Origin: an uncultured Prevotellaceae bacterium
GTDB taxonomy: Bacteria; Bacteroidota; Bacteroidia; Bacteroidales; Muribaculaceae
Direction of reading: 5' to 3'
Length of the DNA stretch: 37,058 bases
Assembly (NCBI GenBank): GCA_900318335.1
Contig: ONKF01000024.1
Location: 1-37,058 of the forward strand
Shown: positions 30,362 through 33,043 of the stretch, piece by piece
Position numbering within the stretch: position 1 is the first letter of the stretch
How the letters are laid out: each line of letters opens with the position of its first letter
Program-made: the position numbers and the translations under genes
Notes under the pieces: generated by a model
Databases searched by the model: none
The model's input: the letters and a program-made list of their open reading frames with translations, nothing else
Told to the model about the DNA's origin: nothing

Positions 30362-30382
30362 AATAGAAATCTATTATCTTTG
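30362..30382 (+). promoter_or_regulatory. -7 element and abutting palindrome upstream of the methyltransferase unit
   Basis: The -7 box TATCTTTG (30375-30382) matches TAnnTTTG. A perfect palindrome AATAGA-AA-TCTATT (30362-30375) overlaps its first base, where a bound protein would block the polymerase. No good -33 is visible, as expected for a regulated promoter. Transcription would start near 30388, giving a leader of about 280 bases. Confidence 0.5.
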
Positions 30383-30455
30383 CCATTGGAAATGGTGCAC
30401 CTCATGTGCCGTTTTCACGACATCGTGGATATCAATTAGCGTTGGCTATTATTCA

Positions 30456-30618
30456 AACGTTCAGAAACTTGCAGGTAGAAGAACAGTATTTGAGAATAAT
30501 GGTGACGCTCACTTCGTGTGGGCGTTTTTCTGTCTCAAATACTAGGTTTCCTGCAAGTACCTTGAACGTTGGACGGGGATTCGTCCACCTTCTGTGTCTA
30601 TTAGGGTACTTGCAGGAA
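30456..30618 (+). promoter_or_regulatory. structured leader with mutually exclusive helices and an internal terminator-like hairpin
   Basis: A rod forms from ACGTTCA-type ends (30456-30463/30563-30570), ACTTGCAGG (30467-30475/30550-30558) and AGTATTTGAGA (30485-30495/30533-30543). Its tip is a GC-rich hairpin at 30505-30525 followed by five T (30525-30529), like an intrinsic terminator. The segment 30548-30561 can instead pair perfectly over 14 bp with 30605-30618, which would open the rod. Both pairings cannot coexist, so attenuation is a reasonable inference. Confidence 0.5.
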
Positions 30619-30639
30619 CGCTTTGTTTATTGGCCCAGC

Positions 30640-30663
30640 GCATTAATAACGACTTATTAATGC
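30640..30663. promoter_or_regulatory. perfect palindrome three bases before the methyltransferase start codon
   Basis: GCATTAATAA (30640-30649) and TTATTAATGC (30654-30663) are exact reverse complements around CGAC. In DNA it could be an operator. In RNA it would fold over the ribosome-binding region. Confidence 0.55.
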
Positions 30664-30666
30664 ATC

Positions 30667-31776
30667 ATGGCAAACGAGAATTTATCTAAGGCCAAAGAGG
30701 CTAAAAATGACGAGTTCTATACTCAGTACCATGACATCGAGAAGGAAATCTCGGCCTACTTGGAGTATAACCCCGACGTGTTTCGGGGTAAGACTGTTTT
30801 GCTGCCTTGTGACGACCCCGAGTGGAGCAATTTCACCAAATATTTTGCCCAGAACTTTGAGAACTTCGGCTTGAAAAAGTTGATTTCCACCAGTTATGCC
30901 CCCGAAAGCAAGCGCTACAAATTCGGCTATGTGCCTACCCTGTTCGAGACCGAGGCACCGCATTTTGATGCTGACAAGAGCAAGACCCACGGCAAAATCT
31001 TCGTTCTTGACCACGACGTGACGGGGGATGGTGTCATCATCTTTGAGGACCTGGAATGGCAATATCTTGAGGGCGATGGTGACTTCCGTAGCAAGGAAAT
31101 CTGCAAGTTGCGCGATGAAGCCGACTTTATCATTACCAACCCGCCTTTTTCACTGTTCCGCGAGTTCCTGGCTTGGATTGTCGAAGCAGACAAGCAGTTT
31201 CTCATTATCGGCAACATGAACGCGATTACTTGCAAAGAGGTGTTCCCGTTGATAAAGGACAATAAGGTATGGTATGGTTGTTCCATCAGCAGTGGTGATA
31301 GGGAGTTTGGCGTACCTGACGAGTATCCGCTGACTGCCGCTGGATGGAGAATTGATGAACAGGGTAAAAAATACATCCGTGTTAAGGGTGTGCGTTGGTT
31401 TACCAACCTTGACCATGGCCGCAGACACCAGCCGTTGCCTTTGATGACCATGGCCGACAACTTGAAATTTAGTCGACATAAGGAAATTCGGGGGAAAGAT
31501 AGTTATGAGCATTATGACAATTACGATGCAATAGATGTGCCATATACCGATGCTATTCCGTGCGATTATGAAGGTGTAATGGGAGTACCTATTTCTTTCC
31601 TTGATAAATATTGTCCCGAGCAATTTGAGATAAAGGGAATGGCTGCTGGCAATTCTAGAGCAACAAAGTTTTATTACGATGTAAAATATGTTCAACATCC
31701 TAAAGATAGAGGAGGATGTGGTGTAATTGATGATAAAACTATTTATCCAAGAATCCTAATCCGCAAGAAACAATAA
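30667..31776 (+). CDS. EcoRI-family adenine-specific DNA methyltransferase
   Basis: The 369-residue protein matches the EcoRI_methylase family (N6-adenine methyltransferases using S-adenosylmethionine). The catalytic motif is NPPF (residues 158-161, in FIITNPPFSLFREF). Later family segments are IGNMNAITCKEVFPLI, GVRWFTNLDHGRRHQPL and DYEGVMGVPISFLDKY. It is somewhat longer than M.EcoRI. The gene is followed after 6 bases by a DUF262-HNH gene and has no EcoRI-like endonuclease beside it. Base composition changes inside the gene: the body is about 50% GC, but 31501-31740 is 36% GC by my count, which suggests the C-terminal (target-recognition) part was acquired separately. Confidence 0.9.
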   Translation: MANENLSKAKEAKNDEFYTQYHDIEKEISAYLEYNPDVFRGKTVLLPCDDPEWSNFTKYFAQNFENFGLKKLISTSYAPESKRYKFGYVPTLFETEAPHFDADKSKTHGKIFVLDHDVTGDGVIIFEDLEWQYLEGDGDFRSKEICKLRDEADFIITNPPFSLFREFLAWIVEADKQFLIIGNMNAITCKEVFPLIKDNKVWYGCSISSGDREFGVPDEYPLTAAGWRIDEQGKKYIRVKGVRWFTNLDHGRRHQPLPLMTMADNLKFSRHKEIRGKDSYEHYDNYDAIDVPYTDAIPCDYEGVMGVPISFLDKYCPEQFEIKGMAAGNSRATKFYYDVKYVQHPKDRGGCGVIDDKTIYPRILIRKKQ

Positions 31777-31782
31777 GACGAT

Positions 31783-32934
31783 ATGGAAACGATATTAAGG
31801 ACAGACATCACAGTTCGCGAGATTTGCGAGGGCTTTATCTATAACGAGTTGGAGGGTAAAGGCCTGTTCGGCATGAATGGCAAACTGACCATCCAGCCCG
31901 AGTACCAGCGCAACTATATCTATGCCGACGGCAAGCGTGATGTCGCCGTTATTGACTCTGTGCTGAAGGGTTATCCCCTTGGGGTCATTTATTTCAATCA
32001 GGTGGGCGATGATTTCGAGGTGCTTGACGGTCAGCAGCGCATCACGAGCCTGGGCCGTTTTGTGACCCATAAACTTGCCATCAAGGACAAGAACGGGATG
32101 CAGCAGTATATTGACGGCCTTAACAAGGAAGACCGCGACAAGGTGCTGAACACCACGCTGCTCATCTACATCTGCAAGGGCACCGAGAGTGAAATCAAGG
32201 AATGGTTCCAGACCGTCAACATTCCTGGCGTGAACTTGAACAATCAGGAAAAACTCAATGCCGTTTATTCGGGGCCGTTTGTGGAGGCGCTTAAGAGAGA
32301 ATTCAGCAACTCGCAAAATGCCAATAAACAAAAGTGGAGCGCTTACATCAGAGGCTCAATCGACCGACAAGATTATCTTGAGCGTGCCCTGCAATGGGTG
32401 AGCCAGGGCAATGTAGATGCCTACATGAGCATGCACCGCCAAGATACTGACATCTCTCCCGTTAAGACTTATTTCAATGCCGTGCTGGATTGGGCGTCAG
32501 GCGTGTTCAAGGATGTGCTGCCCGAGATGCGCGGTCTGGAGTGGGGGCGCTTTTATGAGGAGTACCACAACAAGCCTTACAATGTGGATGCCGTCTCCAA
32601 ACGTGTGCATGAACTCTATGCCGACCCCTATGTGACCAACCACAAGGGCATTTTTGAGTACATCTTGGGCGGTGAGAAGGAAAAGAGCCTGTTGAACATC
32701 CGCGTGTTTGACAAGGCGACTATTAACCGAGTTTACACCCAGCAGACTCAAGCCGCCAAGGAGAATGGGGTGAGCAACTGTCCCGACTGCGCCTTGAAGG
32801 GTGAAACCCGCATCTACAAACTCAACGAGATGGATGCCGACCACGTCACGGCTTGGAGCAAGGGCGGTGCTACCGACGAGAGCAACTGCCAGATGCTGTG
32901 CCGGTACCACAACCGCTCCAAGGGCAACAAATAG
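31783..32934 (+). CDS. DUF262 domain protein with C-terminal HNH nuclease domain
   Basis: The 383-residue protein combines an N-terminal DUF262 domain (ParB-like fold; [10 protein letters not shown], then [12 protein letters not shown] with DGQQR at residues 82-86) and a C-terminal HNH nuclease: CPDC (333-336), DADHVTAW with H354, then [17 protein letters not shown] ending in the second zinc Cys and the HN pair. In GmrSD type IV enzymes DUF262 binds nucleotide and drives a DUF1524 nuclease; here a plain zinc HNH replaces DUF1524. It is co-transcribed with the adenine methyltransferase, so a restriction role against unmodified or modified DNA is inferred. Confidence 0.88.
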
Positions 32935-32972
32935 CCCATCGCATCCCCTAACAGCAACAGGAAATAAGAAAG

Positions 32973-32999
32973 TTGTCCTTTTTGTCTTTCTTGTCTTCT
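32973..32999. repeat. three 9-base tandem units 3' of the HNH gene
   Basis: TTGTCCTTT (32973-32981), TTGTCTTTC (32982-32990) and TTGTCTTCT (32991-32999) are adjacent units with 9-base period. No good inverted partner is seen. Confidence 0.6.
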
Positions 33000-33043
33000 A
33001 AATCTATCTCGTTACCGCTTCATGATGCGGCAATAAACAACGA

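Follow-up and report, generated by a model that had tools for sequence, protein, structure and literature searches.

DUF262 proteins with a DGQQR motif joined to an HNH-type nuclease are familiar from GmrSD and BrxU. The phosphorothioate-linked enzymes SspE (PMC9646914) and DndI (PMC11662687) are described in those sources as DUF262-HNH nucleases tied to a DNA-modifying partner for the choice between self and non-self, and the account of DndI gives DGQQR as an NTPase motif (PMC11662687). On the side of specificity, a survey of type I systems with invertible hsdS genes (PMC7394358) describes two exchangeable target-recognition segments, inverted cassettes and a recombinase gene, and a report on frameshift switching in a type IIG enzyme of H. 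pylori (PMC3936762) describes a repeat tract that alters methyltransferase specificity via the C-terminal end. We found features of these systems in the two genes, M and R, of a locus in the window and in their relatives; the window is the whole stretch of 37,058 nucleotides analysed here (Table 1).

M covers the PF13651 EcoRI_methylase profile from position 1 to 345 of 345 and carries NPPF, which places it among the adenine methyltransferases of this family; in an alignment of 68 M, N158, P160 and F161 are invariant and P159 is nearly so. R matches PF03235 GmrSD_N (E 1.1e-19) and PF01844 HNH (E 3.8e-9), and the invariant residues in 63 aligned R include the DGQQR motif as well as C333, C336, C369, C373, D353, H354, N368, H376 and N377. 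Beside PF03235, only PF01844 was found in R at E 0.001, with DUF1524 absent, and no other Pfam families were matched in M or R. Both open reading frames are intact in the window list and are separated by 6 bases, so the pair described in the initial annotation, an intact NPPF methyltransferase of the EcoRI family followed by a DUF262 protein with a complete zinc HNH domain, is confirmed by Pfam, the reading frames and the conserved residues. The PADLOC model MTase_II matches M (E 8.9e-100), and the PADLOC type II REase model PDLC03418 covers R from end to end (E 1.3e-84); with R thus already listed by PADLOC among type II enzymes, the pairing as such is not new. The new element is the presence of two exchangeable segments in M, and these slots, the switching devices found in relatives and an RNA leader all go beyond the initial annotation.

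Table 1. Coordinates of the features of the M-R unit in the window and of the tail cassette in two relatives
Feature	Position	Strand	Basis or property
Structured RNA leader directly upstream of M	30375..30666	+	Conserved DNA, folding, covariation
M: EcoRI-family N6-adenine DNA methyltransferase, 369 aa	30667..31776	+	PF13651 E 2.2e-136; PADLOC MTase_II
M catalytic motif NPPF, residues 158-161	31138..31149	+	Sequence and alignment of 68 M
M slot 1, residues 205-243, exchangeable segment, putative target-recognition region	31279..31395	+	Spearman vs R identity 0.02 (residues 201-240)
M slot 2, residues 323-359, exchangeable tail segment between conserved GVPISFLDKYCPEQFEI and YxRILI	31633..31743	+	G+C 34%
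R: DUF262 (GmrSD_N)-HNH nuclease, 383 aa	31783..32934	+	PF03235, PF01844; PADLOC REase_II full length
R DGQQR motif, residues 82-86	32026..32040	+	D82-R86 invariant in 63 R
R zinc HNH nuclease domain, residues 331-383	32773..32931	+	PF01844 1-47 of 47 at residues 333-383; conserved residues
Apparently invertible tail cassette	L148:4965-5354; L203:7638-8031		Shared 22-base repeat arms

The unit resembles each of the described systems in part. M shares with the EcoRI system the full PF13651 profile and the presence of the two slots, whereas its partner is a DUF262-HNH protein and not an EcoRI-family endonuclease, and its slots vary while those of EcoRI-type systems are fixed; a nuclease specificity residing in R and matched to M, as in EcoRI-like type II systems, did not appear in the comparative test given below. 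R has the DUF262 domain of GmrSD and BrxU but differs from them in its PF01844 zinc HNH domain, which stands in place of DUF1524, in its small size and in lying nearly always beside a methyltransferase. As with SspE and DndI, the nuclease is genetically tied to a DNA-modifying partner; here, however, the mark would be m6A, and the partner is one methyltransferase with variable slots next to a constant nuclease. Unlike in type I systems, the slots lie inside the methyltransferase, and the unit consists of M and R only, with no separate S subunit and no HsdR translocase motor. The H. pylori report describes an extra C-terminal domain that is present or absent (PMC3936762), whereas in relatives of our unit three frames lead to three tails alongside a separate constant nuclease.

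The host genome has a single match each for M and R, and the four neighbouring genes that were scanned are ordinary, encoding a Na/Pi cotransporter, a protein without a Pfam match, a beta-eliminating lyase and a Mg-chelatase-like protein. A short intergenic repeat lies at 32962-33002 of the window, and similar copies occur at other sites of the host genome. The nearest folds to the predicted model of M are SAM enzymes, M.TaqI among them; no DNA-bound template is close to this model, in which slot 2 falls partly within a stretch of lower certainty.

Relatives of R were collected with peptide patterns taken from the window R, and the best 80 of 201 were kept, a procedure that biases the set toward conserved R. 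M, in some cases cut, lies upstream on the same contig in 75 of these 80 loci; in the other five (L018, L037, L066, L069, L078), R starts at most 202 bases from a contig end. A tool-drawn set of 295 Bacteroidales genomes contains 30 places that match R at E 2e-68 or better. By manual count from the result tables, 29 of these lie no more than about 1.4 kb from a PF13651 match on their contig; the thirtieth is a partial gene at a contig end. Both counts rule out a pairing by chance, and M and R form one genetic unit. Several EcoRI-type M in the 295 genomes occur without DUF262, four of them (L138, L139, L141, L142) with an R.EcoRI homologue instead. The suggestion of the initial annotation that the DUF262-HNH protein takes the place of the endonuclease agrees with these observations, and its question whether the pair is conserved as a unit is answered by the same two counts.

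The record titles assign the unit to Bacteroidota, Saccharibacteria, Chloroflexi, Firmicutes and archaea, as well as to viral contigs and plasmids; among viral contigs, 12 loci contain M and nine of these also match R. Additional genes are inserted between M and R in some loci, namely RhuM (L075), Fic (L033, L065), BRO-N (L148) and CBASS-like genes (L033), the insertion at L033:2868-5686 comprising a CBASS-like synthetase, Cap15-like genes and the Fic gene. RhuM and Fic genes also occur in type I operons. Because metagenome-assembled genomes are the source of many loci, individual cases could reflect errors of assembly.

The regular company of M bears on the idea that R is a type IV-like nuclease acting against foreign modified DNA, with M only setting the host pattern. 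The GmrSD_N domain of R speaks for it, as does the predicted model of R, which is of fair quality (pLDDT 84, pTM 0.56) and in Foldseek has a weak-scoring resemblance to BrxU, a type IV enzyme of the GmrSD family, to ParB-like proteins and to an HNH enzyme. We nevertheless regard this idea as improbable, because a pairing at the frequencies given above would be unexpected for a stand-alone type IV enzyme, and because the DUF1524 nuclease domain of GmrSD is unmatched in R at E 0.001.

The slots were compared in 90 non-redundant M-R pairs (4005 comparisons), which were left from 124 loci with an R start (113 with M) after 34 had been dropped as duplicates, incomplete or lacking M. The identity of R segments follows overall R identity closely (Spearman 0.84-0.92) and that of the M core does so at 0.61, as against 0.02 for M residues 201-240 and 0.04 for residues 323-358; the last residues of M, 359-369, are also weakly correlated (0.14). 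The window and L009 have an identity of 0.97 in slot 1 and only 0.08 in slot 2, and the reverse is seen between L081 and L083 (0.23 and 0.98). The R of L009 and L010 differ at 4 residues and those of L074 and L080 at 5, yet both slots differ within each pair; DNA identity in these pairs dips at the two slots and is restored between and after them, while the farther flanks are unrelated. Slot 2 types also recur with distant R, whose identity to the window R is about 65% in some cases and about 40% in others. These comparisons show that exchange of slot 1 is independent of exchange of slot 2, and that both are independent of R.

A column-wise test on pairs with an R identity of 0.55-0.80 found no R columns that follow the type of either slot (permutation p 0.61 for slot 1 and 0.76 for slot 2), whereas M columns do follow the slot type, as they must (0/300 permutations). 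Slots could be parsed in all but one of 133 M (L163), as compared with 16 failures among 98 in an earlier round. By these tests, R is constant with respect to the slots of M, and because it does not vary with them, its choice of target probably comes from M, with the slots most likely as the target-reading parts. The initial annotation had expected the nuclease to have its own preference in cleavage and proposed to compare this with the motif of M, and it is on this point that the constancy of R departs from it.

The same results weigh on a classical type II arrangement, in which a single short site is both recognised and cut by R alone and is protected by M. The order and size of the genes suit such an arrangement, and the PADLOC models label both genes type II; however, near-identical R (4 or 5 differences) are found next to M that differ in both slots, and the slot type is not followed by any column of R. 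A further point comes from M that are paired with EcoRI-type nucleases and that serve as a natural control: slots that read the target are expected to stay frozen next to a nuclease with a fixed site of its own. The two slots are also present in the methyltransferase of an annotated EcoRI system on a plasmid (L146), and one slot combination is found in all 10 M paired with R.EcoRI homologues, whose cores are as low as 58% identical, as compared with 89 combinations in 119 DUF262-paired M (118 distinct M). At a core identity of 0.55-0.70, both slots are common to 23/23 EcoRI-R pairs and 13/2966 DUF262 pairs; the corresponding figures are 20/20 and 12/1656 at 0.70-0.85, and 2/2 and 4/76 at 0.85 or above. 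Slot sharing was called at a threshold of 0.4, and 0.3 and 0.5 give a similar outcome. The slots are frozen in the presence of EcoRI-type nucleases in these comparisons, and we infer from this control that they probably read DNA as target-recognition regions. We rejected the classical type II arrangement on the slot-independent identity of R, the near-identical R with different slots, the column test and this control, and consider it very unlikely.

The control comprises 10 M only, from six plasmid and four genome loci; nine more of the 19 plasmid records with R.EcoRI homologues were not included. L214 stands outside it with the same M protein accession as L152, L215 with a cut M, and L206 and L207 with EcoRI-family nucleases that have no EcoRI-type M nearby and adjoin methyltransferases annotated as other kinds. 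A Helicobacter phage record (L213:2035-3450), also outside the control count, holds a shortened R.EcoRI gene and a broken M annotated in two pieces, which when matched separately are 63% and 78% identical to M.EcoRI. The M of L132 is 59% identical to M.EcoRI over residues 1-295 and has an EcoRI-type slot 1 with a different slot 2; neither a DUF262-HNH nor an EcoRI-type nuclease was found in its 1.5-kb flanks, and it counts, as an unexplained case, against slot freezing with EcoRI-type nucleases. Among the DUF262-paired M, 10/119 have the EcoRI-type slot 1 and 9/119 the EcoRI-type slot 2, and both occur together only in L102, for which we predict GAATTC as the target of M. A tblastn search with R.EcoRI at E 1e-3 gave no match in the loci of the window, L001, L086 and L130. 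On a plasmid of Campylobacter coli (L150:6031), sixteen AG repeats follow downstream of a gene for an EcoRI-family methyltransferase.

Several relatives carry devices that appear to swap slot 2 alongside a single R, in the form of three-frame repeats, an invertible cassette or tandem M copies. A (GA)n or (AG)n tract lies within the M tail of L028 (n=13), L031 (n=9), L051 (n=8), L030 (n=8) and L186 (n=7), and the M tail of L067 carries (GACA)3. In L028, L031, L051, L067 and L186, all 15 post-tract frames are open to a strict tail-end motif, with a different tail in each frame. L030 passes in one of three frames by the strict motif and in three of three by a looser one, which was widened after the L030 frames had been seen; its two shifted frames lack the GVPxSF repeat. 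Over all six tract loci, 16/18 frames pass the strict motif, both misses being in L030. None of the 124 shifted frames of 62 M without a tract reached even the looser motif, with control frames starting 30 residues into the tail and not at a tract, and this rules out chance as the source of the three-frame tails. The tail in use is the first in L031, L051 and L030, the second in L028 and L067, and the third in L186. By label, L028, L031 and L051 belong to Saccharibacteria, L186 was retrieved in a search of this class, L030 belongs to Gastranaerophilales and L067 to Eubacteriales; as L028 and L031 are closely related, the tract loci are not independent. L174 and L183 have no tract in the stretch tested. 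Two AGTTC repeat arrays lie upstream of M in L183 (1206-1415), a locus from the Saccharibacteria class search, and may be a phase switch of promoter or start.

In L148, from a Phocaeicola plasmid, and L203, from a Bacteroidales genome, 22-base inverted repeats, 346 and 350 bases apart and with the same arms in the two loci, enclose the active tail and an inverted spare; L148 and L203 use opposite tail types. Just past R, both have a recombinase gene, recognised by a PF00589 match in L148 and by similarity to the eye in L203. Tandem M copies with different tails are present in L040, L077 and L159. More than one tail place was found in 8/76 loci. A separate search also gave eight multi-place loci, and in four of these (L097, L103, L118, L127) the matches fall inside a single M and were left out of the spare-tail count. 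The unit in the window has one tail, with no repeat tract and no switch.

We therefore put forward, as the probable reading of these gene and protein comparisons, a restriction-modification system of two genes in which one protein, M, would both modify the DNA and determine the specificity. Each slot would read part of a short site, M would methylate an adenine in the host copies of that site, and R would have no sequence preference matched to it. M, or the complex of M with DNA, may guide R to unmethylated sites or release it for cleavage there, with the DUF262 NTPase acting as a gate and the HNH domain as the blade. A slot change would then retarget modification and restriction together, which would explain why relatives with a single R have devices for swapping slot 2. 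In the tract loci, each frame would join the same enzyme body to another target-reading tail, so that replication slippage would change the target and not switch the system on or off. To our knowledge, no motif has been described for any DUF262-paired M in this comparison.

The chief rival makes R a generic sensor of m6A, comparable to SspE or DndI: R would read the mark of M through DUF262 in any motif, spare the host and nick unmarked DNA, so that the slots could vary freely. It predicts a slot-blind R and thus fits the constancy of R equally well, and SspE (PMC9646914) and DndI (PMC11662687) are reported examples of DUF262-HNH nucleases paired with a modification enzyme. As the nearest biochemical relatives, these two would by analogy count against an M-directed R, since they read a modification and do not borrow specificity. 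DndI is described, however, as bearing DUF1524 (PMC11662687) and not the PF01844 HNH domain found in R, and a sensor would give no reason for motif-switching devices, because an escaped phage with m6A in the old motif should still look like self. Slot switching would likewise be expected to do harm alongside an R of fixed site, a further point against the classical type II arrangement. We consider the sensor unlikely, though with a weight that should be kept in mind, and retain M as the probable specificity determinant. Taken more widely, the comparison suggests a widespread compact class in which a methyltransferase of roughly 370 residues with two half-site slots would act as the specificity subunit of a sequence-blind DUF262-HNH nuclease, and in which a di- or tetranucleotide repeat of some members would be a three-position tail selector; to this wider proposal we give an even chance.

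The M gene is preceded by about 290 bases that are kept in 10 close relatives (11 loci with the window) and appear to form a structured RNA leader. The inner 227 bases (30440-30666) have a fold z-score of -8.4 relative to shuffles. The leader alignment contains 45 compensatory cells; shuffles give 15.5 +/- 2.9 and slid controls 4-10. The majority of the 45 fall in one helix, where 7/11 pairs changed on both sides with pairing kept. The number of pairs with compensatory changes is 10, a count reached by 21/500 shuffles. No Rfam family matched the leader at the gathering score. A role of the leader in the dosage of M and R is a guess.

If our reading is true, it adds a small two-gene system with a logic like that of type I and type III systems and with a ready-made three-way specificity switch. 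It would also offer an alternative reading of EcoRI-like systems that have been called inactive for want of GAATTC methylation. Such a system was reported in P. intermedia as inactive, with GAATTC unmethylated (PMC5608340), and may be a case in point. M.EcoRI itself would be one frozen combination from a large library of exchangeable slots, in which case the slots could be read as a half-site code and specificities could be predicted from sequence.
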